Made by a program: the position numbers and the translations under genes. A stretch of DNA of 64,000 nucleotides. Source: Nonlabens tegetincola (GTDB lineage: Bacteria > Bacteroidota > Bacteroidia > Flavobacteriales > Flavobacteriaceae). The stretch lies in assembly GCF_002954355.1 (NCBI RefSeq), contig NZ_MQVV01000014.1:62001-126000 (forward strand), read 5' to 3'. The notes beneath the pieces are model-generated. The model was not told the DNA's origin, searched no databases, and saw nothing but the letters and a program-made list of their open reading frames with translations. Below are positions 8,909-56,576 of the stretch, piece after piece; the first letter of the stretch is position 1, and each line of letters begins with the position of its first letter.

Positions 8909-10126
8909 TTAATTGATTAGATAGTTAATAATGGCCGATTGTACATAGTACATTTGCACCGACTCGATTTGATTCATCTGAAACTTCAACTGCAATTCCT
9001 GAATGTCCAGCACATCGTTAAAATCGATAGTGCCCGTTTCATAATTTTTTACCAGAATTTCCTCGGCATCTTGGGCTTGTTTTAAGTTGCGCTCTTGTGT
9101 ATTGTAAGCGATGCGCGCTTGGTTGCGTTGTGATTGCGCTTTCGCGAAAGCGGATTCCAGCACATTCAATCGCTGTTCCCGTTGGGTTTCTATTTCTTGC
9201 TGGCGCAGTTCATTTTGCCTTGAAATGGATTTGTAACGGTTGTTAAAAATGGGAATGGATACCGAAACCATTGGCATCAATATATCTTTCCCATTATCGC
9301 TAAAATTGACATCGCTACGTTCTGTTACAGGCAAGTAGTCCACACCAAAACCAATCATAGGTAAGCTTTCACGCTGGTTGAGTAGTTCAGATTGTGCCAC
9401 AGATTCATAAAGTTTATCGTATTTGAGCAGTTCAGGATTGAGCGCCAGCGCTTCATTACTATAAAACGGGTCTTCCTGTGGAATTTCCATTTCTGGAACG
9501 ACGTCAACCGTCATCATTGATTCGCGGTTGAGCAAGTTGTTGAAAGCCGTTTGTTCTGCTGTAAATTCTTCTTCCAGCACTTCCTTTTGTTGCTGTAACT
9601 CATTTTGCCGTATTTGAAGTCGCAACACATCTACGGCACTCGCTTTACCCACTTCTACAGATGTGAGCGCAAGTTGCTCATAGGTTTGCAATAGCTGTAT
9701 ATTTTCATCAAGCACAGCTTGCTTGGCACGTATAGAATACAGGCTATAATAGGATTGTGCGACCGAAAGTGCGAGCTTGCGCTTTGCAATCGTGATGTCC
9801 ACATATTCGGCATCTGCCATTGCGGTGGCATAATTTTCACGAGCTGTAATAGTACCAAACCACGGCAACATCTGTTTTACACCTATCCGTGCACGTTGTG
9901 CGCCCACTCTGGTTTCTGGCTCGCTCACAAAGTAGCCGGCACTTACTTCGGTATTGGGAATCCAGTTGGCTTCGTTTACCTTTTCTTCGGCGATGTTGTA
10001 CCGCAATTCAAAGGCTTGAATTTCTGGATTGTTCGCTTCGGCTTCCTGAATATAGGATTGTAATTGTTGCGCTTTCGCGAAAGCGGAAACAAACAAAAAC
10101 ACGAGTATATATTTTAATTTTTTCAT
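8909..10126 (-). CDS. TolC-family outer-membrane efflux protein (CusC-like)
   Basis: A 405-residue outer-membrane channel. A signal peptide covers residues 1-19, with cleavage expected after AKA. Two long helical repeats follow, typical of TolC proteins (SYIQEAEANNPEIQAFELRY near the start and ENYATAMADAEYVDITIAKR in the first repeat; YETGTIDFNDVLDIQELQL in the second). It would form the outer duct for the RND pump. Its start overlaps the pump's stop as ATGA. Two copies of the 16-bp palindrome lie within it: one encodes the end of the signal peptide, the other SAFAKA near residue 325. No lipobox is present, unlike E. coli CusC. Confidence 0.9.
   Translation of the reverse strand: MKKLKYILVFLFVSAFAKAQQLQSYIQEAEANNPEIQAFELRYNIAEEKVNEANWIPNTEVSAGYFVSEPETRVGAQRARIGVKQMLPWFGTITARENYATAMADAEYVDITIAKRKLALSVAQSYYSLYSIRAKQAVLDENIQLLQTYEQLALTSVEVGKASAVDVLRLQIRQNELQQQKEVLEEEFTAEQTAFNNLLNRESMMTVDVVPEMEIPQEDPFYSNEALALNPELLKYDKLYESVAQSELLNQRESLPMIGFGVDYLPVTERSDVNFSDNGKDILMPMVSVSIPIFNNRYKSISRQNELRQQEIETQREQRLNVLESAFAKAQSQRNQARIAYNTQERNLKQAQDAEEILVKNYETGTIDFNDVLDIQELQLKFQMNQIESVQMYYVQSAIINYLIN
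9137..9152. repeat. 16-bp palindrome, copy 1 (in TolC gene)
   Basis: Exact CGCTTTCGCGAAAGCG inside the TolC-type gene, read as AFAKA. Confidence 0.95.
10070..10085. repeat. 16-bp palindrome, copy 2 (TolC signal peptide)
   Basis: Exact CGCTTTCGCGAAAGCG in the TolC-type gene, encoding AFAKA at residues 15-19, that is the end of the signal peptide. It is followed on the plus strand by GAAAC, as in copies 4 and 5. Confidence 0.95.
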
Positions 10127-13100
10127 CTGTTTGCTCTTTTAAGTTGGTATTCCTTTTTCCAGCTGTATAAAACTGGTAATAGGAAATAAGACGTAACGTC
10201 GATTATCATTCCGCCAAAAATGGGTATCGCCATCGGTATCATTATATCGCTTCCCTTGCCTGTGGATGTGAGTACGGGAAGTAGTGCCAGCACCGTTGTT
10301 ACGGTAGTCATCAAACACGGACGAATGCGTTTACCTGCGGCTTCCAAAGTGGCGAGTCTTATACTTTTTTTATTGTCTGGTTCGTTGCTTTTGAAAGATT
10401 GGTCTAAATAAGTCGCCATAACTACACCATCATCTGTAGCAATACCAAATAGGGCAATAAAACCTACCCAAACGGCGACACTTAAATTGATGGTCTTCAT
10501 ATTGAACAAGTCCCGAAGATTTTCGCCGAAAAAACTGAAGTTGAAAAACCAATCTTGTCCGTACAACCATATCATTATAAACCCACCCGCAAAGGCCACG
10601 GCGATTGCAGTAAACACCATAAGCGATGTAGAAACCGACCTGAACTGGAAATACAAAATCAAGAAAATGACAAGCAAGCAAAGTGGTACAACAACCGACA
10701 GCGTTTTTTCTGCTCGCAACTGGTTTTCATACGTTCCTGTAAAGCGATAGCTCACGCCCTGTGGCACGACCAGCGAACCGTTATCAATATTTTCTTGAAT
10801 CAGCGCTTGGGCATTTTCGACCACATCCACTTCTGCAAAGCCATCGAGTTTATCAAACAGCACGTAGCCAATAAGAAAAGTGTCTTCACTCTTAATGACC
10901 TGTGGTCCTTGCTCGTAGCGAATATCTACCAATTCGCCAAGCGGTACAGGACTTCCTTTTTCAACAGGAACATAGATATTACGCAAGTCGTCTGGATTTG
11001 CCCGTAATTCTCTTGGATAGCGGACACGCACGGCGTAGCGTTCACGGCCTTCCACGGTTTGCGTTAGTGGCATACCGCCCACGGCCACTTGAAGGATTTC
11101 CTGCACGTCCATAATGGATATGCCATATCGAGCCAATTGGTCTCGCTTAATATCGATGAGCAAGTAGGGTTTGCCCACGATACGGTCTGCAAAGACAGCT
11201 TGTTCTTTAACGCCTTCGGCTTGTTTCAAGATGTCTTCCAGTTGCAGTCCAAAATTTTCTATGGACTTTAAATCGGGACCTTTTACCTTGATACCCATAG
11301 GTGCTCGCATTCCCGTTTGTAGCATTACCAATCGTGTTTCGATGGGTTGCAACTTGGGTGCAGATGTCACGCCTGGTAGTTTGGTTACTCGAACTATCTC
11401 GTTCCAAATATCATCTGGACTCTCGATGTCTGGTCGCCAGTTTCGGTAATACTCGCCGTTTTCATCTTCAATCAACTCTTCGCGTGTAGCGGTAGTCTTG
11501 AGCGATGCTTTGTCATAATTGACATCTTCGTCTATCTCATTATTTGGGTTAATAATAAATTTGTCGTTCTTCAGTACAAACAATCCATCGTCATTGACCT
11601 TATAGCGTTGTCGCTCGCCTGAACTATTCCGCATATATTCAGATTTATACTGAATGACATTCTCATACATCGAGAGTGGTGCTGGGTCGAGTGCGCTTTC
11701 CGTTCGTCCTGCTTTTCCTACTACGGTTTCAATTTCAGGGATGCTCGCCACCGCCATATCGAGCTGTTGTAAGACTCGCTTGTTTTCTTCCACACCAGCG
11801 TGTGGTAAGGATGTAGGCATCAGCAGGAAAGAGCCTTCATTCAGCGCTGGCATAAACTCTTTGCCCGTATTTCGCATAATAATGATACCCAACGTGAGCA
11901 CCGTAGCCGGAACGATTAAGAATAGATATCGGTTCTGAAGTGCCCATCGCAAAATACGCTCATAGTATATCCTGAAAATCGAGAACACACCAAGCAGTCC
12001 AAAACAGATAATGGAAACAAATAACAAGTTCATCACAATACTTCGGTCAAAGCCTAACGGTCGCCAGTAGGTAGCGAGCAAGAATACGATGGCAACCGAT
12101 GAAATGATGATGTCCAGAAGGTTTTTACGCTTTACCGCTACGCTCTCTCGTTGGTCGTGAATCTCGCCAGCTCGATTTCGCGAAAGCGTACCACGCATCT
12201 TTAAAAGTGATGTTATGGCAAAGGCAATTAGAATTAGCCCCAACCAAAAGCCGTAAACGATGGCGAGAATTCCCAATAAAACAAGTAAGCCATTGATGAC
12301 GTACTGTGTCCGTTCACGCAAATTCGTCTTACGGAAAAGAAATGCCGCAATGGGTGGGATGAGAAATAGCGCAATGATGAGTGATGCCGTGAGTGCCATT
12401 GTTTTGGTAAAGGCAAGCGGACGGAATAGTTTTCCTTCGGCACCAATCATTGTAAATACGGGCAGGAAACTGATTATTGTTGTTAAAACTGCTGTTAGAA
12501 TAGCACCAGAGACTTCGGCAGTTGCGTTGTAGATGATTTCGTTTGTGGTGTATTCTTTACCGTTTTCATTAAGGCGCAGCTTTTCATCTTCCAAGTGCCG
12601 TATCATATTTTCGGCGAGTATCACGCCCACGTCCACCATTGTACCGATGGCAATGGCAATACCTGAAAGTGCGACGATATTTGCATCTACATTAAAGAGC
12701 TTCATCGTGATGAAAACCATCAAAACGGCTACGGGTAACAACCCTGAAATAAGGATGGATGCACGCAGATTGAAAACCATTATAATAATGACCAAAATGG
12801 TAATTAGGATTTCCAAAGTGAGTGCTTCATTGAGCGTTCCCAGCGTTTCTTGTATGAGTTCTGTCCGGTCATAAAATGGTACAATGGTAACTTGCGAAAT
12901 GCGACCATCTGATAAAGTTTTTGTGGGAAGTCCAGAGCTTATTTCGGCAATTTGCGCCTTGACATTATTGATAACTTCCAACGGATTTGCACCGTAGCGA
13001 GCGACTACGACACCACCTACGACTTCGGCCCCTTCCTTATCGAGAATACCACGTCTGGTAGCAGGCCCCAAATGGACGTTAGCCACATCTTTGATGCGGA

Positions 13101-13920
13101 TGGAAGTGAAATTTTCAGAATCTACAACTGCATTTTCAATATCTGCTATGGACTTGACGTAACCCAATCCGCGTACGAGGTATTCCGCTTGATTGATTTC
13201 GAGAGTCTGTGCCCCTATATCTTGATTGCTCTGTTTGACGGCTTTAACCACATCGCCCATACTCACGTTGTACTGGCGCATTTTTTCTGGGTCAATGTCC
13301 ACTTGGTATTCCTGAACATAGCCACCAATGGAAGCTACTTCAGAAACACCACTTGCCGATGACAATCCATATTTCACATAGTAATCCTGTATGCTACGCA
13401 ATTCCTGTAAATCCCATCCGCCAGTTACGTTGCCGTCTTTATCACGACCTTCCAGCGTGTACCAAAAAATCTGTCCGAGACCCGTGGCATCTGGTCCTAA
13501 TGATGGATTGACACCATCAGGTAATAGGTTTGCAGGAAGTGAGTTCAGTTTTTCAAGTATGCGACTGCGTGACCAGTAGAACTCGATGTCTTCTTCAAAA
13601 ATGATATAGATGCTTGAAAATCCAAACATAGACGAACTACGAATGGTTTTCACACCTGGAATACCGAGAAGCGAAGTGGTAAGAGGATATGTGATTTGGT
13701 CTTCAATGTCCTGTGGCGAGCGACCTTGCCACTTGGTAAAAACAATTTGCTGGTTCTCGCCAATATCCGGTATGGCATCAACGGCAACTGGGTCTGTAGG
13801 TAAAAAGCCCGTTTCCCAATTAAAGGGTGCGTTGACCACGCCCCAACCCACAAATAGGGCGAATAGTAGAACGGCAACAAGTTTGTTTTCTATGAGAAAT
13901 TTAATGCTCTTATTCAGCAT
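10123..13920 (-). CDS. cusA: CusA/CzcA-type heavy-metal RND efflux pump
   Basis: A 1265-residue inner-membrane pump of the HME-RND group. It starts with NKSIKFLIENKLVAVLLFALF (first helix), has paired periplasmic domains, helices 2-6 near residues 350-530, and the HME motif region GTMVDVGVILAENMIRHLE that holds proton-relay acidic residues. It is about 200 residues longer than E. coli CusA; extra hydrophobic segments near 545-640 and a charged insert near 780-860 account for this and are usual in Bacteroidota. Methionines in APLSMYEN and RLVMLQTGMRAPMG suit Cu(I)/Ag(I). Copper is inferred from neighbours. It is coupled to TolC by ATGA, but no adaptor gene is present. Confidence 0.92.
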   Translation of the reverse strand: MLNKSIKFLIENKLVAVLLFALFVGWGVVNAPFNWETGFLPTDPVAVDAIPDIGENQQIVFTKWQGRSPQDIEDQITYPLTTSLLGIPGVKTIRSSSMFGFSSIYIIFEEDIEFYWSRSRILEKLNSLPANLLPDGVNPSLGPDATGLGQIFWYTLEGRDKDGNVTGGWDLQELRSIQDYYVKYGLSSASGVSEVASIGGYVQEYQVDIDPEKMRQYNVSMGDVVKAVKQSNQDIGAQTLEINQAEYLVRGLGYVKSIADIENAVVDSENFTSIRIKDVANVHLGPATRRGILDKEGAEVVGGVVVARYGANPLEVINNVKAQIAEISSGLPTKTLSDGRISQVTIVPFYDRTELIQETLGTLNEALTLEILITILVIIIMVFNLRASILISGLLPVAVLMVFITMKLFNVDANIVALSGIAIAIGTMVDVGVILAENMIRHLEDEKLRLNENGKEYTTNEIIYNATAEVSGAILTAVLTTIISFLPVFTMIGAEGKLFRPLAFTKTMALTASLIIALFLIPPIAAFLFRKTNLRERTQYVINGLLVLLGILAIVYGFWLGLILIAFAITSLLKMRGTLSRNRAGEIHDQRESVAVKRKNLLDIIISSVAIVFLLATYWRPLGFDRSIVMNLLFVSIICFGLLGVFSIFRIYYERILRWALQNRYLFLIVPATVLTLGIIIMRNTGKEFMPALNEGSFLLMPTSLPHAGVEENKRVLQQLDMAVASIPEIETVVGKAGRTESALDPAPLSMYENVIQYKSEYMRNSSGERQRYKVNDDGLFVLKNDKFIINPNNEIDEDVNYDKASLKTTATREELIEDENGEYYRNWRPDIESPDDIWNEIVRVTKLPGVTSAPKLQPIETRLVMLQTGMRAPMGIKVKGPDLKSIENFGLQLEDILKQAEGVKEQAVFADRIVGKPYLLIDIKRDQLARYGISIMDVQEILQVAVGGMPLTQTVEGRERYAVRVRYPRELRANPDDLRNIYVPVEKGSPVPLGELVDIRYEQGPQVIKSEDTFLIGYVLFDKLDGFAEVDVVENAQALIQENIDNGSLVVPQGVSYRFTGTYENQLRAEKTLSVVVPLCLLVIFLILYFQFRSVSTSLMVFTAIAVAFAGGFIMIWLYGQDWFFNFSFFGENLRDLFNMKTINLSVAVWVGFIALFGIATDDGVVMATYLDQSFKSNEPDNKKSIRLATLEAAGKRIRPCLMTTVTTVLALLPVLTSTGKGSDIMIPMAIPIFGGMIIDVTSYFLLPVLYSWKKEYQLKRANR
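12176..12188. repeat. Partial palindrome, copy 3 (in cusA)
   Basis: TTTCGCGAAAGCG, the right 13 bases of the 16-bp palindrome, in cusA, read as TLSR. The left arm is changed (GAT in place of CGC). Confidence 0.75.
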
Positions 13921-13950
13921 AACATTTGATGTATTAGATAATTGGAATTA

Positions 13951-14008
13951 CGTGTTGCGGAAAATGGCAAACACGAGTTTTAGCCCACTACAGCATAGCT
14001 ATTGGGCT
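13951..14008. repeat. Two hairpins between the HYC gene and cusA
   Basis: Arms CGTGTTGC (13951-13958) and GCAAACACG (13967-13975, one bulged base) form one hairpin; AGCCCA (13982-13987) and TGGGCT (14003-14008) form a second. They fill most of the 109-base gap between the upstream small gene and cusA. They might end or attenuate transcription, or be remains of a recombination site; nothing in the sequence decides this. Confidence 0.5.
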
Positions 14009-14029
14009 TCATTCAAAAAATCTAACAAA

Positions 14030-14449
14030 TCAAATTAAGAAAGTCTGGTACATCACTTGCACATCCCGTTTGACAAAGGGTCGCGGGTAATCTTCAAAAG
14101 GAACTTCTTCAGATTCGGTTCCTTCAAATAGGTTTATATAAGAATATGTAAAAGCAGCGATGAACGTTTGCTGCTCGCAAGTCAACTTGGTAAAGTTTTG
14201 CTTTAAATCATCCTGTCCTTCAATAATTAATTGCTCATCAGAGCAACAGGAATTTTTGGTAAGCATCGGATTTTCACAACCTATACTTGACTGCTCTTTT
14301 TCCATTCCACAGGTTTCTGCTGATTGGAACAATGAAAAATCTACAAGAGAATCCCCACAATAATGCATATCAACAGTAAATGACATCGTGGTAAAAAGTA
14401 CCACGACTGCCATTAAGATAGCCATCGATTTGTGGAGGAATTTCTTCAT
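14030..14449 (-). CDS. HYC_CC_PP-type small exported protein
   Basis: A 139-residue protein from ATG 14449 (a TTG nine bases upstream is less likely). It has a signal peptide or anchor (residues 5-25), the motif MHYCGDSLVDFSLF, a CC pair in NSCCSDEQ with further Cys residues, and a proline-bearing end (EDYPRPFVKRDVQVMYQ). This matches the HYC_CC_PP family, named for those three motifs and common next to metal-resistance genes of Bacteroidota. The Cys and His residues suggest periplasmic metal binding, but function is unknown. It is the first gene of the minus-strand copper block. Confidence 0.75.
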   Translation of the reverse strand: MKKFLHKSMAILMAVVVLFTTMSFTVDMHYCGDSLVDFSLFQSAETCGMEKEQSSIGCENPMLTKNSCCSDEQLIIEGQDDLKQNFTKLTCEQQTFIAAFTYSYINLFEGTESEEVPFEDYPRPFVKRDVQVMYQTFLI

Positions 14450-14530
14450 TAAGTACAAAAATAATAAAATTTGATATAATTTGTTGTACTTTCTTATTTA
14501 GAATGCTTCTTGAAAGTATAAATTTGGTTA

Positions 14531-15784: not shown

Positions 15785-15862
15785 AGTTGTCGTCTTTAGA
15801 TTATACAAATCGTCTTGACGAATGTCAAATCAACTATAGCAAGTATTTCAAAGCTTTTCTTG

Positions 15863-15887
15863 AAAGTGTCAGTTCAACTGACACTTT
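15863..15887. promoter_or_regulatory. 25-bp palindrome upstream of the integrase
   Basis: Arms AAAGTGTCAGTT and AACTGACACTTT flank a single C. It lies 79 bases upstream of the integrase ATG, between it and tRNA-Arg. A regulator or recombination-factor binding site is a reasonable guess; no T run makes it a typical terminator. Confidence 0.5.
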
Positions 15888-15960
15888 GAAAATTAACTGA
15901 CGATTAGCTACCATATAGAAGCAAATCGTTTCATTTCAAATGTTGGTCTAAAAACCAGAA

Positions 15961-15993
15961 AGCCACGCAAATCATAGTGATTGCGTGGCTTTG
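15961..15993. terminator. Hairpin downstream of tRNA-Arg
   Basis: AGCCACGCAA (15961-15970) pairs with TTGCGTGGCT (15981-15990) around a ten-base loop, followed by TTT on the plus strand and TTTC on the minus strand. It lies 27 bases past the tRNA 3' end and probably ends its transcript. Confidence 0.6.
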
Positions 15994-16016
15994 TTGTCAT
16001 TTTGCAATGACTAAAG

Positions 16017-16090
16017 TGACCTCGACAGGATTCAAACCTGTAACCTTCTGAGCCGTAATCAGATGCGCTATTCAGTTGCGCCACGAGGCC
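16017..16090 (-). tRNA. tRNA-Arg (ACG anticodon)
   Basis: Read on the minus strand, the acceptor arms are GGCCTCG and CGAGGTC (one G-U pair), the anticodon stem is TCTGA/TCAGA around loop TTACGGC with anticodon ACG, and the T arm is ACAGG-TTCAAAT-CCTGT. The discriminator base is A at 16017 and CCA is not encoded. The 3' end faces the integrase, as for integrative elements that use the 3' part of a tRNA gene as attachment site; 16017 to about 16045 is the likely att region, and the left copy would lie outside the window. Confidence 0.93.
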
Positions 16091-16194
16091 TTTATAGCTG
16101 CTTAATGAAAACATGTTTCTCACAAAGCGGTTGCAAATATACTATCATTTTTTAAATATTGAAATAACTTTAATTAAAAGTTTATTCAGTTTTT

Positions 16195-16202
16195 TAATTT
16201 TG
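16195..16202 (+). promoter_or_regulatory. Possible -7 element of apt
   Basis: TAATTTTG fits the TAnnTTTG element of Bacteroidota promoters. It ends four bases before the apt ATG, so the transcript would be leaderless or nearly so. No good -33 TTG at the usual spacing is seen. Confidence 0.3.
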
Positions 16203-16206
16203 ATCT

Positions 16207-18890: not shown

Positions 18891-20035
18891 TATTTTGTGC
18901 TTTTCTCCATCGCTTGTTCGATGTCGTTAATTAACAAATCTACTTCCTCAATACCTACAGATAACCTAAGCAAGTCATCACTTATTCCTTGCTCAGCTCT
19001 TTGTTCTGGTGTCAACAAACTATGTGATGTTAAACTAGGGGCTAGGATAGTACTTTCAACTCCTGCAAGACTTAATGCTGGCTGAATTAAGTTTAGTGCT
19101 TCTAAAAATTTATCCGTTTTTACAGAACTTTTGAGCTCAAAAGAGAGCATACCACCATAACCCTTCATTTGATTTGTTGCAATTTCGTAATCAGGATGTG
19201 ATGGCAATCCAGGATAGTTCACTTTTCTAATTAATGGATGTAATTCTAAAAATTTGGCCAGTTTTTTTGCATTTTTCGATTGCTTTTTGACCCTTAATCC
19301 TAGAGTTTTTATACTGCGATCTAGCATCCATGCGGTTTGATCACTTATACTTCCTCCATAATTTTTAGCTGTATTCCACACACGATCAATATCCTGTTGT
19401 GAACCACTTACCGTTCCTGCTGTTATGTCGCTGTGTCCACCTAAATACTTGGTAGCACTGTGAATTATAATATCAATCCCAAAATCTGCTGGTGTTTGAT
19501 TAACGGGTGAGGCAAAGGTGTTGTCGATTACAGATTTTAATTTGTTCGCTTTCGCGAAAGCGGAAACAACTTCAAGATCAACAAGCTCTAGTAAAGGATT
19601 ACTAGGTGTTTCTACATAAATCATTTTAGTATTCGGTCGAAGAGCTTTTTGAAGGTTTTCTTCATTAATACGTTCAACCATGGTAAATTCAATACCCGTA
19701 TTTTTAAATTCGGCAGCGGCAAAATGTGCTGTTCCACCGTAAATAGCCCTTTGTAAAATGATGTGGTCACCAGTTTTCAAAAAGCTCATGAAAACAGCAC
19801 TTATGGCAGCCATACCACTCGCTAAAATGAGTCCGGCCTCTGTATTTTCTAATGCAGCCATCTTTTCACCCAATGCAACTTGATTAGGTGTATTCATGTA
19901 ACGAGGATATAAATTAGTGCCAGGATTGCGGTAATCGTAGGCTGTAGATAGGTACAATGGAGCGGTAGCACCACCGTATTTGTCATCTCTTAATTGCCCA
20001 GAATGAACGCACAGGTAATTAATATTTTTTTTCAT
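18890..20035 (-). CDS. Transsulfuration-family PLP enzyme (cystathionine gamma-synthase/lyase type)
   Basis: From ATG 20035 the protein has 381 residues; a GTG nine codons upstream is less likely. It is a Cys/Met metabolism PLP enzyme: the PLP lysine lies in IHSATKYLGGHSDITAG, and YGGTAHFA and YVETPSNPLLELVD are family motifs. Members act as cystathionine gamma-synthase, gamma-lyase or methionine gamma-lyase, and the sequence alone does not tell which. The junction with bshB1 suggests cysteine supply. One palindrome copy lies inside (19547-19562), encoding SAFAKA in a surface region next to the PLP domain. Confidence 0.88.
   Translation of the reverse strand: MKKNINYLCVHSGQLRDDKYGGATAPLYLSTAYDYRNPGTNLYPRYMNTPNQVALGEKMAALENTEAGLILASGMAAISAVFMSFLKTGDHIILQRAIYGGTAHFAAAEFKNTGIEFTMVERINEENLQKALRPNTKMIYVETPSNPLLELVDLEVVSAFAKANKLKSVIDNTFASPVNQTPADFGIDIIIHSATKYLGGHSDITAGTVSGSQQDIDRVWNTAKNYGGSISDQTAWMLDRSIKTLGLRVKKQSKNAKKLAKFLELHPLIRKVNYPGLPSHPDYEIATNQMKGYGGMLSFELKSSVKTDKFLEALNLIQPALSLAGVESTILAPSLTSHSLLTPEQRAEQGISDDLLRLSVGIEEVDLLINDIEQAMEKSTK
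19547..19562. repeat. 16-bp palindrome, copy 4
   Basis: Exact CGCTTTCGCGAAAGCG inside the PLP enzyme gene, read as AFAKA, with GAAAC on the plus-strand side. Confidence 0.95.
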
Positions 20036-22385: not shown

Positions 22386-24191
22386 TTCGTATCGTTGATC
22401 TGTTAGGGTTTTTAGAAAATTTATGAGATCAGTTTGCTCTTGTTTGGTAAGGTCTAATGGATCTGGTGGCAAGGTTTGATATTCTTGATCAGTTATTCCA
22501 ATACCATAACCACCACCACGATTATAAAAATCAATTACTTGCTCAAGTGTGCTGTAAACTCCGTTGTGCATGTACGGTGATGTGATTTCAACATTGCGCA
22601 AACTTGGAGTTTTAAAAAAGTGTTTTCTAGATTCAGTTTGATAAACCTCATACACACCTAGGTCTTCATCAATTGTAGCGTTTGTGTTTTCAATTGTTGC
22701 AGGAGTTCCCAAATGTTCAATTTCGGTTTCAGTAAAATCAGGCGGAATAGTACCATTAAAAACTGGGGCAAAATGACAAGTTGCACATTGTGCATTACCC
22801 ATGAATAAATTAAAACCATTAATTTCTGACGAAGTTAAGCTGGATTCTTCACCTCGTAGATTTCTATCCCATTTTGAATCCCAGCTATTCAAGCTGCGTA
22901 AATAGTCTGCTATGGATCTTCTTACAGTTGATTCATTTAAAGGTTGATCAGGATAAAGAGTTGTAATTGATTTTAAATAATCTTCATTCTGCTTTACCAC
23001 TTGTAATAGTTTAGAAACATCAGTGTGAAATTCTGTTTCATTTTCAACTACATTAATAATTTGTCCTTCTAGACTTCCAGATCTCTTATCGTAGAAAAAA
23101 TTATTTTGATAAGCTACATAGGTTAGGCTAGGGCTATTTCGTTTTTGATCCTTACTTTTTGCAAGTCCGTCTGTAAATGCTAGTTTATCTACATGACAAG
23201 AAGCACAGCTTATTGCTCCGTTACTTGAAAACCCTTTCTCATTGAATAGTTTTTTTCCCAGCTCAATTTTTTCTTGTGTAAGTGTGTCTACTAGGTATCC
23301 TGCAAAATGATCTAGATTGAGTAGTTCGTTAGAAAATAATGCTTCTGCTTCATTAGATACCGCCATTTCTAGTGGAAAATGAATGGTCAGTTCTTTTACG
23401 GTTTGTGCCCATAATTTAAGCATGGGATCACTATGATTTCTAATGTAATGATAGCGATCAAAAGAAGAAAAGGAATGTTTTTTTAAATAGTTTTTATTTG
23501 CCGTAAATGCGTTTTCCCATTCTTTAGCTAGAGATTCATTAGGGTGTTTGGTTAACACTAGATTGATGAGGTATTCCGCTTTCGCGAAAGCGGAAACAGC
23601 ATCCTCTAAACTGTTTTGTAAAGCTGGACTGTCATACCCAGTAATTCCTGTGGTTGTTGTACGTAGGATTTGATTACGGACCATCCATAATACATGATAG
23701 GTTTGATAGTGAGAAAAATCGGCATTGCGAGCAAGTGCATCCATTTTATTACTCATGTGATGAGCAGTTTTTTGAGCAAGTATGAGGTCGGGATTTTCAC
23801 CGAAAATGTTTTCCTCTAAAGATTGAAAACTTAAAGGATTAAGTTCTTTGATATCTGTAGCATCTTCCTCTTCTACCTTAAGTATATTCGGAGCGTTCAA
23901 ACTAGCATAAACTTGCTTATCATGAAATGATAGAACGGGCTCAAGAGATTTGAAATTTTGTCTAGAAACTTTAAACAAATCCCTCATTACTTTAATCTCC
24001 TTGGTCTCACTAATAGAATCGAGAAGATCACGATTTTCAATAAGTTCCTTTTTATAAGAAGACTCAAGTTCTTCCCAATGCTTGGTAGTACTTATATGGG
24101 AATATTCTTGAGGTTGCTTACAGGCGTAATTTAAGAGAATAAGGCTTGCCATGAGGCAAGCCTTTAAAATATTATTTTTAATACGTAACAT
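22359..24191 (-). CDS. Di-haem cytochrome c peroxidase with long N-terminal domain
   Basis: A 610-residue lipoprotein (Cys24). The C-terminal 310 residues form a MauG/CcpA-type di-haem module with two haem motifs, CASCH and CATCH, and the end motif YMHNGVYSTLEQVIDFYNRGGG. The N-terminal part (about 30-280) has the pattern FKVSRQNFKSLEPVL, LNAPNILKVEEE, FQSLEENIF, which resembles imelysin-like proteins. It would reduce peroxide, or oxidise a partner, in the periplasm. It lies two bases after the PhoX-like gene, so the two are co-transcribed. A palindrome copy encodes SAFAKA in the N-terminal domain. Confidence 0.85.
   Translation of the reverse strand: MLRIKNNILKACLMASLILLNYACKQPQEYSHISTTKHWEELESSYKKELIENRDLLDSISETKEIKVMRDLFKVSRQNFKSLEPVLSFHDKQVYASLNAPNILKVEEEDATDIKELNPLSFQSLEENIFGENPDLILAQKTAHHMSNKMDALARNADFSHYQTYHVLWMVRNQILRTTTTGITGYDSPALQNSLEDAVSAFAKAEYLINLVLTKHPNESLAKEWENAFTANKNYLKKHSFSSFDRYHYIRNHSDPMLKLWAQTVKELTIHFPLEMAVSNEAEALFSNELLNLDHFAGYLVDTLTQEKIELGKKLFNEKGFSSNGAISCASCHVDKLAFTDGLAKSKDQKRNSPSLTYVAYQNNFFYDKRSGSLEGQIINVVENETEFHTDVSKLLQVVKQNEDYLKSITTLYPDQPLNESTVRRSIADYLRSLNSWDSKWDRNLRGEESSLTSSEINGFNLFMGNAQCATCHFAPVFNGTIPPDFTETEIEHLGTPATIENTNATIDEDLGVYEVYQTESRKHFFKTPSLRNVEITSPYMHNGVYSTLEQVIDFYNRGGGYGIGITDQEYQTLPPDPLDLTKQEQTDLINFLKTLTDQRYESNVDQSIY
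23577..23592. repeat. 16-bp palindrome, copy 5
   Basis: Exact CGCTTTCGCGAAAGCG in the peroxidase gene, read as AFAKA, with GAAAC on the plus-strand side. Confidence 0.95.
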
Positions 24192-29591: not shown

Positions 29592-29598
29592 AAGTTAC

Positions 29599-29614
29599 GC
29601 TTTCGCGGAAGCGA
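29599..29614. repeat. 16-bp palindrome, copy 6 (variant)
   Basis: CGCTTTCGCGGAAGCG, one base from the consensus, eight bases after the stop of the broken gene. Confidence 0.85.
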
Positions 29615-29998: not shown

Positions 29999-32851
29999 AT
30001 GGCTAAACGATCAGACTTAAAATCCATATTACTTATAGGTAGCGGTCCAATTATTATTGGGCAAGCATGTGAATTTGACTACTCAGGTTCTCAAGCATTG
30101 AGATCACTGCGTGAAGATGGTATTGAAACCATACTTATCAATTCAAATCCTGCGACTATTATGACTGACCCTAGTATGGCAGATCATGTATACTTGCTAC
30201 CGCTTAACACAAACTCAATTAGAAAGATTCTAAAAGAGCATCCACAAATTGATGCAGTGTTACCGACAATGGGAGGACAAACAGCTCTTAACTTGTGTAT
30301 TGAAGCGCAAGAAAAAGGAATTTGGGAAGAGCACGGTGTTGACTTAATAGGTGTAAATATTGATGCTATTAATATCACCGAGGATCGTGAGAAGTTTAGA
30401 GAACTCATGGAAAAAATAGGTGTAGGTATGGCGCCACAAGCTACTGCTACATCATTCTTAAAAGGAAAAGAAATTGCGCAGGAATTCGGATTTCCTCTTT
30501 GTATAAGATCATCCTTTACTTTAGGTGGTGCAGGAGCAGCAATTGTTCACAAGGAAGAAGATTATGATGAATTACTACGTCGTGGACTAGAGGCTTCTCC
30601 TATTCATGAAGTAATGATCGATAAAGCCTTGCTAGGTTGGAAAGAATACGAATTAGAATTATTACGCGATAAAAATGATAACGTAGTAATCATCTGTGTA
30701 ATTGAAAACATGGATCCTATGGGAATTCATACAGGTGATTCTATTACAGTAGCACCTGCTATGACCTTATCAGATCGTACGTATCAAAAAATGCGTGATA
30801 TGGCTATCCATATGATGCGCAGTATAGGTGAATTTGAAGGTGGTTGTAATGTTCAATTTGCTGTTAGTCCAGACGAAAAAGAGGAAATCATTGCCATTGA
30901 AATAAATCCTCGTGTTTCTAGATCATCGGCGCTTGCAAGTAAAGCTACCGGTTATCCAATCGCAAAAATAGCTACTAAACTTGCTTTAGGTTATACCCTA
31001 GATGAGTTGAACAACCAGATCACGGGTAGTACATCTGCCTTGTTTGAACCTACAATCGATTATGTAATTGTTAAAATTCCACGATGGAACTTTGATAAGT
31101 TTGAAGGCTCAGACCGCACACTAGGCTTACAAATGAAAGCCGTAGGTGAGGTGATGGGAATTGGTAGATCATTCCAAGAAGCTTTGCACAAAGCAACACA
31201 GTCACTTGAAATTAAAAGAAACGGACTAGGTGCCGATGGTAAGGGTTACCGTGACTACAATCAAGTGATTGATAAGTTAACCAATGCAAGTTGGGATAGG
31301 GTTTTTGCACTGTATGATGCTATCGAAATGGGAATTTCTCTTTCACGTATTCATGAGATCACTCGTATTGACATGTGGTTCTTGCAGCAGTTTGAGGAAT
31401 TGCACCAACTAGAAAAGGAGATTTCAAAGTTTGATATAAATACGCTTTCGCGAAAGCTACTCTTAGAGGCTAAACAAAAAGGATTTGCCGATAGACAGAT
31501 AGCACACATGCTAGGATGCCTAGAAAGTGAGGTATACAACAAAAGAGACGAGATGAACATTAACCGTGTTTATAAGCTCGTAGATACCTGTGCTGCAGAG
31601 TTTCCTGCTATGACGCCTTATTACTACTCAACCTTTGAGGCAGAGATGCAAACTGCTGATGGTAAGAGGTTTGCGCAAAATGAAAGTGTTGTATCGGATA
31701 AAAAGAAAATTATTGTATTAGGATCAGGTCCTAACCGTATAGGCCAAGGAATTGAATTTGATTACTGTTGTGTTCATGGTGTATATGCTGCTCAAGAATG
31801 TGGTTATGAGACTATCATGATTAACTGTAATCCTGAGACTGTGTCTACCGATTTTGACACAGCTGATAAGCTGTATTTTGAACCTGTATTCTGGGAACAT
31901 ATTTATGATATTATTCGTCATGAAAAGCCAGAAGGAGTTATAGTCCAACTAGGTGGACAAACAGCGCTTAAACTAGCTGAGAAATTAGATCGTTACGGTA
32001 TTAAAATTATGGGTACAAGCTACGACGCGCTGGACCTAGCTGAAGATCGTGGACGTTTTTCAACCTTGTTAAAAGAGAACAACATACCTTATCCTAAATT
32101 TGATACAGCAACAACGCCAGATGAGGCCTTAAAAGTAGCCGATGAATTAGATTTCCCGATTCTAGTGCGTCCTTCCTACGTACTTGGTGGTCAAGGGATG
32201 AAAATTGTCATCAATAAACAAGAGCTAGAAGCACACGTTGTTGATATTTTAAGAAAAATACCTAATAACGTTCTTTTACTAGATCATTATCTAGATGGTG
32301 CCATAGAAGCTGAAGCAGATGCTATTTGTGATGGTGAAAATGTTTATATCATAGGTATCATGGAACACATTGAACCATGTGGAATACACTCTGGTGATTC
32401 TAACGCTACATTGCCTCCTTTTAATCTAGGAGATCTTGTAATGCAGCAAATTAAAGATCACACTAAAAAAATCGCACTTGCACTTAAGACTGTTGGTTTG
32501 ATCAACATACAGTTTGCAATCAAAGATGATACGGTTTACATTATCGAGGCTAATCCTAGAGCATCTCGTACAGTACCTTTTATTGCTAAAGCTTACGGAG
32601 AACCGTATGTAAACTATGCTACTAAAATAATGCTAGGAGAGAAAAAGGTTACTGACTTTGAATTTAATCCACAATTAGAAGGTTATGCGATCAAGCAACC
32701 TGTGTTTTCATTCAATAAATTTCCAAATGTAGACAAGAGATTAGGTCCAGAAATGAAATCAACTGGTGAGAGTATTTTATTTGTAGACAGCCTTAAGGAT
32801 GACGAGTTCTACGATTTATATGCACGTCGACGTATGTATTTAAGTAAATAA
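29999..32851 (+). CDS. carB: Carbamoyl-phosphate synthase large subunit
   Basis: A 950-residue enzyme for arginine and pyrimidine synthesis. Two ATP-grasp halves are clear, each opening with LIGSGPIIIGQACEFDYSG or VLGSGPNRIGQGIEFDYCC, with the oligomerisation region between (about 400-555). It ends soon after GPEMKSTGES, so the MGS-like C-terminal domain of about 130 residues that binds allosteric effectors in E. coli CarB (1073 residues) is missing. I recall other Flavobacteriaceae with the same short form. A palindrome copy lies near residue 483, read as TLSRK. carA is not in the window. Confidence 0.95.
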   Translation: MAKRSDLKSILLIGSGPIIIGQACEFDYSGSQALRSLREDGIETILINSNPATIMTDPSMADHVYLLPLNTNSIRKILKEHPQIDAVLPTMGGQTALNLCIEAQEKGIWEEHGVDLIGVNIDAINITEDREKFRELMEKIGVGMAPQATATSFLKGKEIAQEFGFPLCIRSSFTLGGAGAAIVHKEEDYDELLRRGLEASPIHEVMIDKALLGWKEYELELLRDKNDNVVIICVIENMDPMGIHTGDSITVAPAMTLSDRTYQKMRDMAIHMMRSIGEFEGGCNVQFAVSPDEKEEIIAIEINPRVSRSSALASKATGYPIAKIATKLALGYTLDELNNQITGSTSALFEPTIDYVIVKIPRWNFDKFEGSDRTLGLQMKAVGEVMGIGRSFQEALHKATQSLEIKRNGLGADGKGYRDYNQVIDKLTNASWDRVFALYDAIEMGISLSRIHEITRIDMWFLQQFEELHQLEKEISKFDINTLSRKLLLEAKQKGFADRQIAHMLGCLESEVYNKRDEMNINRVYKLVDTCAAEFPAMTPYYYSTFEAEMQTADGKRFAQNESVVSDKKKIIVLGSGPNRIGQGIEFDYCCVHGVYAAQECGYETIMINCNPETVSTDFDTADKLYFEPVFWEHIYDIIRHEKPEGVIVQLGGQTALKLAEKLDRYGIKIMGTSYDALDLAEDRGRFSTLLKENNIPYPKFDTATTPDEALKVADELDFPILVRPSYVLGGQGMKIVINKQELEAHVVDILRKIPNNVLLLDHYLDGAIEAEADAICDGENVYIIGIMEHIEPCGIHSGDSNATLPPFNLGDLVMQQIKDHTKKIALALKTVGLINIQFAIKDDTVYIIEANPRASRTVPFIAKAYGEPYVNYATKIMLGEKKVTDFEFNPQLEGYAIKQPVFSFNKFPNVDKRLGPEMKSTGESILFVDSLKDDEFYDLYARRRMYLSK
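31443..31458. repeat. 16-bp palindrome, copy 7 (variant)
   Basis: CGCTTTCGCGAAAGCT, last base changed, in carB, read as LSRK. Confidence 0.85.
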
Positions 32852-39537: not shown

Positions 39538-39553
39538 CGCTTTCGCGAAAGCG
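39538..39553. repeat. 16-bp palindrome, copy 8
   Basis: Exact CGCTTTCGCGAAAGCG, extended to a 22-bp perfect palindrome (39535-39556), 37 bases before the serine hydrolase ATG. Confidence 0.95.
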
Positions 39554-44204: not shown

Positions 44205-44220
44205 CGCTTTCGCGAAAGCG
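44205..44220. repeat. 16-bp palindrome, copy 9
   Basis: Exact CGCTTTCGCGAAAGCG, 18 bases after the DUF5777 stop, between converging genes. Confidence 0.95.
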
Positions 44221-46979: not shown

Positions 46980-46995
46980 CGCTTTCGCGAAAGCG
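46980..46995. repeat. 16-bp palindrome, copy 10
   Basis: Exact CGCTTTCGCGAAAGCG, extended to a 24-bp palindrome (46976-46999), between the thioesterase start and the gene at 47010. Confidence 0.95.
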
Positions 46996-48767: not shown

Positions 48768-48792
48768 TATTATATAAGAATTAGCTATTGAT

Positions 48793-50238
48793 CTAATCAT
48801 TAGACTCAATTCCTAAAATATCAGGATCACTGTCAACAGCCCTTTCTACCAGCTTCTCGTTGAGGTGTTTATTAGCTTTGGCTCCTAATTTTCTAAGTTT
48901 TTCAACACGACCTACTAGATTACCAGAACCTTCTGTAAGCTTGTTCATACTAGAAGAATATGTTTTTTTAACAGTATCTAGTTGAGTTCCTACTTTGATT
49001 AGATCTTCTGTAAGACCTACAAACTTATCATAAAGTGCGCCGGCAGCATTGGCAATATCTAGTGCATTGCGTTGTTGCTTTTCGTTTTGCCACATTGTGT
49101 CAATAGTACGTAAGGTAGCTAGTAGGGTAGTAGGTGTCACAATTACAATATTCTTTTCAAAAGCATCGCTGTACAAACTGCTATCTGTATTAAGCGCCAT
49201 GGCAAAGGCAGGTTCTATAGGCACAAATAACAATACAAAATCTGGACTTTCTATTCTATATAGATCGTGATAGTTCTTGCCCGATAAATCACTTACGTGT
49301 TTCTTAAGCGCGTTAATGTGTTCTTTAAGATAACGTTCTTGTAATTGATCGTCTTCTTCATTTACATAGCGTTCATAGGCATTAAGAGAGACTTTACTAT
49401 CTATAATCATCTTTTTGCCACCAGGTAAACTCACAATAACATCAGGAAAAACAGTCTTACCATCTTCTGTTTTGAAGCTTTGCTGCACTTCATATTCCAT
49501 GCCTTTTTCTAGTCCAGACTTTTCCAGCACACGTTCTAAAACAAGTTCACCCCAATTCCCTCGCATTTTGGCATCACCTTTAAGCGCTTTGGTTAGGTTA
49601 TTTGCCTCGGTGCTCATTTTTTCATTGAGCTCCTTTAAACCTATAATTTGCTGTCTCAAGGCACTTTGACGGTCGATCGTGTCCTTATGAGTGTCTTCCA
49701 CCTTTTTTTCAAAACTCTTGATTTTCTCCTGTAGCGGATTTAATATTTGTTCAATACTTTCCTTGTTTTGACTGGCAAACTTGGTGCTTTTCTCTTCTAA
49801 AATTTTGTTAGCTAGATTCTCAAATTCTTTAGTGAACTTTTCATTGAGCTTCTCAATTTCTAGTTGTGCCTCAGCATGTTTTTCTTCCGCTTTCGCGAAA
49901 GCGGTACGTTGCTCTGCGAGCAACACATTCAAATGTTCCTTTTCGCGAGCTACTTCCTTGAAATCTTCATTGAGCGATTCGTAGCGTTTAGTTAGTTCCT
50001 GTAGGTTCTCCACCTTACTCGCTACTTGCCCTTGTAAGGTATTTTGCTCTAATTTAAGTTGATCTCGTTCTTTGGCTACTTGTAGCACCTCTGTGAGTTG
50101 CGTTTCTAATTGCTCTTTGTTGTTACGTAGTAAGTTGACCTCACCAGAAAACTTAGTTTTAGAAAAAAACCAAGCGATGACAGCACCTAAAACAGCACCA
50201 ATTAAAAAAATAAATAACCAAGAAAAATCGTCAAACAT
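48793..50238 (-). CDS. rmuC: DNA recombination protein RmuC
   Basis: From ATG 50238 (an open frame continues 25 codons upstream but lacks the right start) the protein has 481 residues: one N-terminal membrane helix (5-25), a long coiled coil to about residue 185, and the nuclease-like RmuC domain with VFPDVIVSLPGGKKMIIDSKVS. RmuC limits inversions at short repeats in E. coli. A palindrome copy lies in the coiled coil (TAFAKAEEK). Upstream of satD in reverse order but apparently its own unit. Confidence 0.9.
   Translation of the reverse strand: MFDDFSWLFIFLIGAVLGAVIAWFFSKTKFSGEVNLLRNNKEQLETQLTEVLQVAKERDQLKLEQNTLQGQVASKVENLQELTKRYESLNEDFKEVAREKEHLNVLLAEQRTAFAKAEEKHAEAQLEIEKLNEKFTKEFENLANKILEEKSTKFASQNKESIEQILNPLQEKIKSFEKKVEDTHKDTIDRQSALRQQIIGLKELNEKMSTEANNLTKALKGDAKMRGNWGELVLERVLEKSGLEKGMEYEVQQSFKTEDGKTVFPDVIVSLPGGKKMIIDSKVSLNAYERYVNEEDDQLQERYLKEHINALKKHVSDLSGKNYHDLYRIESPDFVLLFVPIEPAFAMALNTDSSLYSDAFEKNIVIVTPTTLLATLRTIDTMWQNEKQQRNALDIANAAGALYDKFVGLTEDLIKVGTQLDTVKKTYSSSMNKLTEGSGNLVGRVEKLRKLGAKANKHLNEKLVERAVDSDPDILGIESND
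49888..49903. repeat. 16-bp palindrome, copy 11
   Basis: Exact CGCTTTCGCGAAAGCG in rmuC, read as AFAKA. Confidence 0.95.
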
Positions 50239-50313
50239 AAAAACAGATTTAAACCTTAAAAATACATCAGTTGGTTGAGTACTAAAATCACTTTTACAAA
50301 GTCTTTTCCACAA

Positions 50314-51981: not shown

Positions 51982-53802
51982 TTATCCCAGACTTTGCATT
52001 TCAACTAGAGTGTGATAAAGACCGTTTTTGGATAATAATTCATCATGAGTTCCTTGCTCTACAATTTGCCCTTTCTTCATTACCACAATGTGATCTGCGT
52101 TTTGAATAGTAGATAGTCGGTGTGCAATAACTACTGATGTTCTATTTTTCATCACACGCTCTAGCGCATCTTGCACTAGTCGTTCGCTTTCAGTATCTAG
52201 TGCGCTAGTAGCTTCATCTAATATAAGAATAGGAGCATTTTTAAGAACTGCTCTTGCGATAGAGAGACGCTGTTTTTGACCACCGCTTAATTTACCACCG
52301 CTGTCACCTATATTTGTGTGTATACCATTAGGAAGATCTTTTACAAATTCCCAAGCATTAGCAATTTTTAAAGCCTCAATAATACTTTCTTCACTGGCAT
52401 TTTTGTCACTCAACGCGACATTGGCAGCCACGGTATCATTGAAGAGGATAGAATCCTGTGTAACTAATGCCATTTGGTCTCTTAGACTTTTTAAACTAAC
52501 ATCTTTAATATTGTGTTCATCAATAGATATGGTGCCATTTTCAATGTCGTAAAACCTGGTGAGTAAGTTAGCTATCGTACTTTTACCAGAGCCAGATTGA
52601 CCAACCAGTGCGACGGTACTTCCCTTTGGTATATCAAGACTGAAGTCTTTAAGTACTGGTTCATCAACGTATGAAAACGTAACGTTTTTAAGTTGTATCG
52701 CTTTCGCGAAAGCGGACATCTCAACAGCACCTTCTTTATCTTCAATCTCATTCTTTGTATGGAGTATTTCAAGTACACGCTGCGCTGCCGCATTACCTTC
52801 TTTTACTTGATAACTTGCTTTTGAAAGAGCCTTGGCTGGTGTTAATATGTTGTAAGCCAAAGCCATAAAACCAATAAATGTGGTAGGGTCTATACTTTCT
52901 TCTGTGAGTACCAGTCTACCACCAAACCAAAGCAATACTCCAATCATGAGAATTCCTAAAAACTCACTCACTGGACTAGCCAATCCTTTTCTGTGATTGA
53001 GCTTGATTGCATATCTATTCATGCGCTGCGTGCTACTCTCAAATGTTTCTTGTAAACGTTCTTCTGCATTGAAGCCTTTAATTACTTTCAAACCACTTAG
53101 GGTTTCTTCTAAAAGGGACAAAAAGTAACCTTGCTCTCGCTGTACTTGACTACTACGGTTTTTTAATTTTTTACCCAATCTAGAAATCAAAAATCCAGAG
53201 ACAGGTAAGAATAAAATCATAAAAATGGTAAGCTGCGGACTTAAGATGATCATTAATATTAAAGTGAAAATAATATTAAGTGGTTCTTTTATAATCAATT
53301 CTAGAATCGACAAAAAACTATGTTGAATTTGTAACACATCGGCACTTGTGCGTGCGATTACATCACCTTTACGCTTTTCAGAAAAATAAGAAATAGGCAG
53401 ATTTATGATTTTTGCGTACAAATCATCACGTATATCCTTTAATACTCCATTTCTCAAATAGGCAATAAAGTACATTCCTAAATAACCAAATAGATTTTTA
53501 AGGAAGAAAAGTGATAGAACTAGGGCGATAACAACTATTAATGCTTGTTCTTTACTTTCAGTTTGAGTGGTTACATAATATCCTAAGTATCCTTTGAGAT
53601 AGTCCATGCCGTTTTGAATTCCAGTCCAAACAGGTTCTTCGGTAATTGCTTGTGTTTTGTCAAACAAAACATCTAGCATAGGGATTAAGGATACAAAGCT
53701 CAATGCTCCAAATAGAGCAAAGAGAATATTAAAAGTAATATTCAATATTCCTGAGGTTTTGTAGGGCTTTGCATACCTCAGAATTTCTTTAAAATAATTC
53801 AT
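51982..53802 (-). CDS. ABC exporter, MsbA-like (fused membrane and ATPase domains)
   Basis: A 606-residue half-transporter: six helices in residues 15-330, then the ATPase with Walker A VGQSGSGKST, signature LSGGQKQRLSIARAVL, Walker B ILILDEATSALD and the H-loop IAHRLST. It may flip lipid A precursors or other lipids, or export drugs. Exactly adjacent to both neighbours (0-base gaps), so it is in one operon with RluA and the sugar mutase. A palindrome copy joins the two domains at residues 365-370 (SAFAKA). Confidence 0.92.
   Translation of the reverse strand: MNYFKEILRYAKPYKTSGILNITFNILFALFGALSFVSLIPMLDVLFDKTQAITEEPVWTGIQNGMDYLKGYLGYYVTTQTESKEQALIVVIALVLSLFFLKNLFGYLGMYFIAYLRNGVLKDIRDDLYAKIINLPISYFSEKRKGDVIARTSADVLQIQHSFLSILELIIKEPLNIIFTLILMIILSPQLTIFMILFLPVSGFLISRLGKKLKNRSSQVQREQGYFLSLLEETLSGLKVIKGFNAEERLQETFESSTQRMNRYAIKLNHRKGLASPVSEFLGILMIGVLLWFGGRLVLTEESIDPTTFIGFMALAYNILTPAKALSKASYQVKEGNAAAQRVLEILHTKNEIEDKEGAVEMSAFAKAIQLKNVTFSYVDEPVLKDFSLDIPKGSTVALVGQSGSGKSTIANLLTRFYDIENGTISIDEHNIKDVSLKSLRDQMALVTQDSILFNDTVAANVALSDKNASEESIIEALKIANAWEFVKDLPNGIHTNIGDSGGKLSGGQKQRLSIARAVLKNAPILILDEATSALDTESERLVQDALERVMKNRTSVVIAHRLSTIQNADHIVVMKKGQIVEQGTHDELLSKNGLYHTLVEMQSLG
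52699..52714. repeat. 16-bp palindrome, copy 12
   Basis: Exact CGCTTTCGCGAAAGCG in the ABC exporter gene, read as AFAKA, in the linker before the ATPase domain. Confidence 0.95.
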
Positions 53803-55518: not shown

Positions 55519-55613
55519 AATCATTGATTAGAATTGCAAAGATAGGAATTAGTAGCAATGCTAGCTTTTAAACTCTTACATAGAGTTTGTTAAACTACAT
55601 GGTGGTCATTCTC

Positions 55614-56576
55614 CTAATGATCTAGTTTCTCCTCGATAAAGTAACGGCCGCTTTGGTTACCACTGCGCAATATCAACTCTCCTAGAAAACCTGCAATAAA
55701 AAATAACGTACCTAATAACATAACGGTAAGCGCAATAAAGAACCAAGGATTGTCAGTCACAAGATTATAGGGTAAATCATTGTATAATCGGTAAAGTTTT
55801 GAAATGCCTACATATCCTGCGATTACAAAACCAATTAAAAACATAACGATGCCTAAACTACCGAATAAGTGCATGGGGCGTTTTCCATACTTAGACAAGA
55901 AGCCAATGGTAATTAGATCCAAAAAGCCATTGATGAATCTTTCATATCCAAATTTGGTACTACCATATTTCCTAGCTTGATGAACCACAACCTTTTCAGT
56001 AATATTCTTAAAACCGGCATTTGCGGCAAGAACGGGAATGTATCGGTGCATTTCACCGTGAACATCAACATTCTTTACCACTTCACGACGATAAGCCTTT
56101 AAACCGCAGTTAAAGTCATGCAAGGTTAATCCACTGGTTTTTCTTGCAGCCCAATTAAATAATTTACTAGGTAAGTTTTTGGCAATGACACTGTCATAAC
56201 GTTTCTTTTTCCAACCACTTACTAAATCAAAACCTTGCTCTGTAATCATTTGGTACAATGCCGGGATTTCTTCAGGACTGTCCTGTAAATCGGCATCCAT
56301 TGTAATGACCACTTCACCTTTTACAGCAGCAAATCCTGCGTGTAGAGCTTGTGATTTTCCATAGTTAGTGAGAAATTTAATGGCGTTTGTGTTGTTATGC
56401 TTTCGCGAAAGCGTACTCACTACATCCCAACTATTATCAGTGCTACCGTCGTCAATAAACCAGATATCGTAGGTGATATCTGTTTGTTCCAAGACGCGTA
56501 GAATCCATTGATGAAGTTCCTCTAAGGATTCCTCTTCATTTAAAAGAGGGATGACTATGGACAGTTGTTTACTCAC
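55614..56576 (-). CDS. Family 2 glycosyltransferase with two C-terminal helices
   Basis: A 320-residue membrane-associated GT2 of DPM1/ArnC/GtrB type. Motifs: VIPLLNEEESLEEL, FIDDGSTDNSWD, DADLQDSPEEIP and the FNCGLKAYRREV segment; two helices near 235-255 and 270-295. It would transfer a sugar to a lipid carrier (undecaprenyl phosphate). A palindrome variant sits near residue 56 (TLSRK). Four bases from the DUF4199 gene. Confidence 0.92.
   Translation of the reverse strand: MSKQLSIVIPLLNEEESLEELHQWILRVLEQTDITYDIWFIDDGSTDNSWDVVSTLSRKHNNTNAIKFLTNYGKSQALHAGFAAVKGEVVITMDADLQDSPEEIPALYQMITEQGFDLVSGWKKKRYDSVIAKNLPSKLFNWAARKTSGLTLHDFNCGLKAYRREVVKNVDVHGEMHRYIPVLAANAGFKNITEKVVVHQARKYGSTKFGYERFINGFLDLITIGFLSKYGKRPMHLFGSLGIVMFLIGFVIAGYVGISKLYRLYNDLPYNLVTDNPWFFIALTVMLLGTLFFIAGFLGELILRSGNQSGRYFIEEKLDH
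56398..56413. repeat. 16-bp palindrome, copy 13 (variant)
   Basis: TGCTTTCGCGAAAGCG, first base changed, in the GT2 gene, read as LSRK. Confidence 0.85.

Follow-up and report, generated by a model that had tools for sequence, protein, structure and literature searches.

A palindromic DNA element of approximately 50 bp recurs in hundreds of near-identical copies in the genome of Nonlabens tegetincola and those of its congeners, and by analogy with known uptake sequences we favor, with slightly better than even confidence, the interpretation that it serves as a self-recognition tag for natural transformation. Its core, the perfect 16-bp palindrome CGCTTTCGCGAAAGCG, occurs 464 times in exact form in the N. 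tegetincola genome (G000; 3.03 Mb in 21 contigs), where the reversed control sequence does not occur at all, a count far above chance that bears out the abundance suspected in the initial annotation of this DNA. That annotation had linked the repeat to no described family, and we likewise found no description of it in the open-licence PMC literature, which was searched for the string, its cores, Nonlabens, and uptake sequences in Bacteroidota and Flavobacteriaceae.

The repeat came to light in a 64-kb stretch of this genome, hereafter the window. A scan of the window permitting up to three mismatches returned nine exact copies, four copies with one mismatch, and one match with three mismatches, together 14 matches where shuffled sequences are expected to yield 0.08; the three-mismatch match, at position 6097, is treated as a chance occurrence. 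All nine exact copies reported earlier were recovered at the positions given for them, and the four near copies also exist, although two of these had been displaced by one to three bases and begin at 12173 and 29598. The 13 copies are as follows.

9137..9152, no strand assigned, exact core: TolC-like gene of the copper block, AFAKA; element with arms at 9120-9169
10070..10085, no strand assigned, exact core: same TolC-like gene as 9137, AFAKA; left arm with 0 C, right arm with 0 G
12173..12188, no strand assigned, one-mismatch copy: CusA/CzcA-like gene, LSRK frame; left arm weak (5 C)
19547..19562, no strand assigned, exact core: cystathionine gamma-synthase/lyase-like gene, AFAKA
23577..23592, no strand assigned, exact core: MauG/MbnH-like gene, AFAKA
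29598..29613, no strand assigned, one-mismatch copy: intergenic; left arm with 0 C, right arm with 0 G
31443..31458, no strand assigned, one-mismatch copy: carbamoyl-phosphate synthase large-subunit gene, LSRK frame
39538..39553, no strand assigned, exact core: intergenic; left arm with 0 C, right arm with 0 G
44205..44220, no strand assigned, exact core: intergenic
46980..46995, no strand assigned, exact core: intergenic
49888..49903, no strand assigned, exact core: rmuC-like gene, AFAKA; arms poor (3 C left, 5 G right)
52699..52714, no strand assigned, exact core: ABC-transporter gene, AFAKA at amino acids 364-368
56398..56413, no strand assigned, one-mismatch copy: family-2 glycosyltransferase gene, LSRK frame

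Nine of the 13 copies lie inside genes, six reading AFAKA and three occupying the LSRK frame, precisely as had been described. The further assertion that the third frame, RFRES, is never used is true of the window only: among 66 in-gene 14-mer cores in a 464-kb sample of the genome (positions 1-400 kb of contig C10 plus the window), 36 read AFAKA, 16 LSRK, and 14 RFRES. In this same sample, sites with 0, 1, 2, 3, and 4 mismatches to the palindrome number 76, 23, 5, 2, and 1, as against means of 0, 0.005, 0.06, 1.0, and 12.8 for approximately 200 control palindromes of the same composition. Nearly all near matches are therefore full or almost full copies.

The repeated unit is considerably longer than the 16 bp originally proposed. 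Composition of the flanking DNA reveals a 17-bp arm on each side of the palindrome, the left C-poor and the right G-poor and thus mirror images of one another, and this pattern is found in both samples analyzed, comprising 76 exact copies from G000 and 82 from genome G019. When each half-site is read outward, G accounts for 1-11% of residues at positions 3-17 in G000 and for 2-16% in G019; the fraction then rises to 13-16% at positions 18-19 and to 16-19% past position 30, placing the boundary of the unit at approximately 50 bp. This boundary is clear, though not absolute. In the window, the disfavored base occupies 30 of 390 arm positions (P ~3e-9), and the GAAAC previously noticed beside several copies is indeed present, but only as part of the broader rule of a G-poor right arm. 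Among 109 in-gene copies, the arms are depleted to the same degree on the sense and antisense strands (7.2% C, 7.4% G), and arm-arm complementarity does not exceed chance, two observations that argue for a signal read in DNA rather than in RNA. An extended hairpin was rejected because the arms do not pair, as was selection at the RNA level because both strands are alike. Chi sites are short, non-palindromic, and strand-oriented, and this identity was ruled out by the perfect palindrome.

A single strand of the core can fold as a 6-bp hairpin, and one might therefore regard the repeat as a selfish or structural insert, whether a small palindromic mobile element, a terminator, or an RNA hairpin. 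Its enrichment between genes would fit such a view, as 21 of the 76 G000 copies lie in spacers that make up ~11% of the sequence according to a simple gene caller, and 51 of 94 14-mer cores in G019 lie in the ~19% that is spacer there. However, the other 55 G000 copies reside in genes, the arms are unpaired and indifferent to strand, only 2 of the 21 intergenic copies fall between convergent genes, and none of 14 terminator-like sites in the 36-56 kb interval coincides with the palindrome; intrinsic terminators were discarded on the last two of these results. An Rfam search returned two tRNAs only. Comparison of orthologues at four gene sites weighs further against insertion, since sequences with and without the motif align with no insertions or deletions at the motif and range through successive numbers of mismatches, although extra residues lie just past it in L134, one of the glycosyltransferase loci. 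Rickettsia palindromic elements are palindromic segments inserted into genes, and the resemblance to them suggested in the initial annotation was given up in view of these indel-free alignments. The insert interpretation as a whole is largely refuted, and we assign it very little weight.

Judging from these four gene sites, copies of the element are gained and lost through substitution in place. At the ABC-transporter site, 21 loci from different genomes of the genus comprise 15 with an exact copy, one with a single mismatch, and five without the motif, the window also being exact (four named loci, L023, L024, L025, and L029, are omitted from this count as apparent duplicates), and the AFAKA codons are the most conserved of 355 five-codon segments among 21 genomes. 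The glycosyltransferase site is exact in 8 of 12 further Nonlabens loci, a set that includes some duplicates. At the PGM site, where the window lacks the motif and other loci carry it, codon conservation is high but not at the top (segments covering it rank 2 and 4 of 361). The initial annotation had implied that distant orthologues would not preserve the AFAKA peptide. This is the case for the Flavobacterium rmuC orthologues sampled, from which the AFAKA residues are absent, whereas some PGM orthologues keep AFAK-type residues encoded by other codons. The latter pattern suggests that the object of selection is the DNA string and not the peptide.

Copies are distributed with unusual regularity. 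Within 400 kb of contig C10 there are 67 exact copies, whose spacing has a coefficient of variation (CV) of 0.51, compared with 0.99 in simulations, and none of their intervals is shorter than 1.5 kb, where 14.7 such intervals are expected; in G019, when copies with zero or one mismatch are considered, 9 of the 85 intervals are this short, compared with an expectation of 31. The nine exact copies in the window show no even spacing when taken alone (CV 0.91, P = 0.55), and all 13 are weakly even (P = 0.02). Even spacing combined with palindromy keeps alive a rival interpretation, which we nonetheless consider unlikely, in which the element is the dispersed site of a nucleoid-associated or topological protein that organizes the chromosome. 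A dimer would read the palindrome, further subunits would read the arms, and the regular intervals would set domain sizes. The chromosomal sites of SlmA, Noc, MatP, and ParB are likewise palindromic and read by dimers, and the symmetric 50-bp footprint and long retention of single sites would suit a role of this kind. Compared with those sites, however, the element is present in far more copies, exhibits no regional bias that we could see, and tolerates large gaps: in 20 blocks across the G019 chromosome, the number of exact copies varies from 1 to 7 per block and reveals no regional trend by eye, and in genome G258 exact copies are separated by gaps of tens of kilobases, within which laxer copies lie. 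Were chromosome organization its function, a 50-bp element every ~5 kb would be no less unusual than an uptake sequence in Bacteroidota.

The initial annotation had also likened the behavior of the repeat to that of HIP1 in cyanobacteria, and its abundance and its origin within genes agree with this comparison. HIP1 (GCGATCGC) is a highly iterated palindrome that is replaced by alternates in some lineages (PMC4390886), and the mismatches in one-mismatch copies of our element fall mostly on the first or last base (15 of 23), in agreement with what that paper describes for HIP1. The corresponding mechanism, in which a short core (CGCG or TCGCGA, for example) would be the target of DNA methylation and of methyl-directed mismatch repair, is nevertheless improbable for our element. 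Outside the element, G000 contains 242 CGCG (350 expected), 27 TCGCGA (24 expected), and one TTCGCGAA (0.6 expected), and the counts in G019 are similar. Half-sites and short cores thus occur there approximately as expected, except that CGCG falls below expectation and the 7-mer GAAAGCG lies somewhat above it (45 versus 26 expected in G000; 64 versus 49 in G019). Moreover, a unit of 14-16 bp with 17-bp arms far exceeds the usual methyltransferase site. The element also differs from HIP1 in the length of its core, 16 bp rather than 8, and in its arms. Membership in the HIP1 family itself was rejected, as the sequence differs from the octamer and the host is not cyanobacterial.

The palindrome is abundant in three genera. 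All 22 other Nonlabens genomes searched contain 180-737 copies each, and among 118 genomes of relatives, the 27 with any copy are G000, these 22, and four others with 1-4 copies. In a draw of 392 genomes across the phylum, which included G000 and none of the other palindrome-rich genomes, 12 have a copy and none except G000 has more than two. A search of 397 family genomes with the 14-mer core, allowing one mismatch, recovered 628-738 copies in the four Nonlabens drawn, 1017 in G274, and 536 in G258, with at most 29 elsewhere. Exact 16-mers number 630 in G274 and 153 in G258, which represent two further genera of Flavobacteriaceae, and 0-13 in 17 other genomes picked; the few copies of several palindrome-poor genomes are clustered. 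The arms in G258 are weak (G 17%, compared with 25% beyond them), which counts against the uptake interpretation. In a tree of carbamoyl-phosphate synthase (one gene, 30 genomes), the three palindrome-rich lineages stand apart, such that three changes are needed, with at least two forced by well-supported branches. Sequence comparison at rmuC points to Nonlabens as the genus of the window: the best nine named loci (eight Nonlabens and one Flavobacteria bacterium BBFL7; 68-77% identity) contain 2-4 exact copies each, some of them appearing identical at the compared sites to loci of other genus genomes (L023, L128). The next loci of like coverage have 53-58% identity, although identities of up to 69% occur in shorter matches from other genera.

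When 40-kb samples from each of 20 genomes were screened de novo for additional dialects, one clear case emerged, G144, and weakly the same string in G321. This string, CTTCGGAAAT, is a non-palindromic 10-mer unlike the palindrome. Repeats in G063, G211, G228, and G418 were rejected as dialects because each is found at a single place or a handful of places. Counted on both strands, CTTCGGAAAT occurs 605 times in G144 and 345 times in G354 (reversed controls 21 and 14), as well as 212 times in G404, 181 in G033, and 145 in G048, with reversed controls of 14-22 across these five rich genomes; G000 contains two copies, and the five Nonlabens genomes counted contain 1-2 each. If a genus is called enriched when one or more of its genomes contain at least 40 copies and exceed the reversed control threefold, this applies to 16 of the 237 genera of Flavobacteriaceae (397 genomes; table counted by eye). 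The embedding sequence is again patterned, as shown by the 9-mer CTTCGGAAA, which occurs 87 times in a 340-kb portion of G144 (L270-L271, L289-L303): 82% of these copies have T at -3, 66% have A at +13, and 62% have A at +22. Two features of G144 count against uptake, namely spacing that is hardly even (CV 0.86, P = 0.08) and a weak effect in the pooled arms (12.7% versus 15.2%), the latter having led us to drop the idea of an identical arm architecture. Nine pairs of neighbors lie within 200 bp of each other, eight of them inverted. We infer that CTTCGGAAAT and the palindrome do the same job; a non-palindromic string of like abundance in related genera would not be expected of a chromosome-organizing site. 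Exact palindromes are present as well in two CTTCGGAAAT-rich genomes, 12 in G144 and 13 in G354, above most of the palindrome-poor genomes searched.

The element is also present in phage DNA. A scan of viral contigs returned 41 stretches with the exact palindrome, several of which are probably chance single copies in GC-rich contigs; four contigs, however, contain 3-6 copies each, and one of these (seen in L183) carries capsid, portal, and tape-measure genes. Phage copies are compatible with both uptake and chromosome organization, and the mixed arms in viral contigs count against the former. Weighing against chromosome organization, approximately 91 kb of G002 is devoid of the palindrome even at three mismatches (L284-L288, G002:C1:131701-226000). 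This stretch, presumed to be recently acquired or accessory, has reading frames of more than 2,400 and more than 3,200 codons; four proteins were tested from a single 20-kb segment within it, and each is NRPS-like. The copper block of the window shows no thinning of the palindrome, a further point against uptake. It extends from 1673 to 15808, encodes a CopA-type ATPase together with multicopper oxidase, TolC-like, and CusA/CzcA-like proteins, and adjoins a tyrosine recombinase. A counterpart of the copy at 9137, resembling it in the flanks too, is found in a different, motif-poor genus (G169, locus L230), suggesting that at least the TolC-like gene has probably moved between genera.

Copy number, dialects, patterned flanks, an origin by substitution, copies in phage DNA, and one long stretch with none are together the marks of uptake sequences, and we therefore infer that DNA uptake best explains the element. 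A surface receptor would bind DNA carrying the 50-bp element, fragments bearing it would be taken up and recombined preferentially, and substitutions that complete an element would be propagated by biased replacement at any site where they are compatible with the encoded protein or the spacer. If one copy per several kilobases is enough, new copies would accumulate mainly in gaps and even spacing would result, while recent arrivals would lack the element and long-associated DNA, phages included, would gain it. To our knowledge, Pasteurellaceae and Neisseriaceae are the families in which such uptake sequences have been established, both of them using type IV pili, and a palindromic uptake sequence would be the first. 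The flanks of USS and DUS are patterned. The element shares with them hundreds of near-identical copies genome-wide, both genic and intergenic, as well as dialects and copies in some phage contigs; it differs in being a perfect 16-bp palindrome with two arms, in its occurrence in Bacteroidota, and in having no known link to type IV pili. USS accumulate in Pasteurellaceae phages (PMC6776037). That known uptake sequences (DUES) are not palindromic (PMC1939737) counts against our interpretation, and the same paper relates that the even spacing of USS was noted by Karlin and judged insufficient by its author; the comparison literature also includes PMC5217627. If the interpretation is correct, self-recognition in transformation has evolved again in Bacteroidota with other machinery, the strong codon constraint at hundreds of sites per genome is explained, and a test sequence is ready for finding the receptor.

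A broader proposal, which we hold tentatively and at somewhat less than even confidence, is that Flavobacteriaceae possess a family-wide uptake language without type IV pili, with lineage dialects (the 50-bp palindromic element of Nonlabens and the two further palindrome-rich genera, and elsewhere CTTCGGAAAT with its patterned flanks) and a fast-evolving receptor, plausibly a DUF5689 protein. Such a language would represent a separate origin of uptake sequences. In Riemerella anatipestifer, a DUF5689 protein (RA0C_RS04920) and a predicted outer-membrane beta-barrel partner (RA0C_RS04915) are essential for transformation; this competence machinery includes no known pilus proteins, and its genes are widespread in the family (PMC8459023). 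Riemerella columbina prefers its own DNA with no known signal, and for Riemerella PMC7965970 lists only A/T-rich k-mers and defines no uptake sequence. G000 likewise has a DUF5689 protein, recognized here from its domains, and immediately upstream of its gene lies a co-oriented open reading frame. This frame has a C-terminal end that reads to us as barrel-like; it has no Pfam match. The DUF5689 protein and its neighbor may constitute the uptake receptor.

ComEC and DprA domains are present in all 17 genomes considered, palindrome-rich and motif-free alike, as well as in E. coli, and DUF5689 is present in 31 of 31, again including motif-free genomes; these domains therefore do not discriminate, and ComEC and DprA were set aside for that purpose. 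The DUF5689 tree was likewise rejected as a marker of dialect, since it does not group the three palindrome-rich lineages, which counts against uptake. Its median end branch is 0.47, compared with 0.09 in the synthase tree, indicating that the protein is fast evolving. No solved relatives of the protein were found by sequence. For only a part of its length, a structure model (pLDDT 82.9, pTM 0.65) resembles beta-sandwich domains, cleaved-adhesin domains among them, with no hint of DNA binding among the structural matches. The DUF5689 proteins of the CTTCGGAAAT genomes G141 and G144 (L315, L319) have two strong DUF5689 matches, whereas a single one is usual in the other genomes searched. Of the Nonlabens genomes with a completeness of 90% or more, G022 contains the fewest copies of the motif, 255 (L322), and its DUF5689 protein falls, with weak placement, outside the clade of the five other Nonlabens proteins examined.
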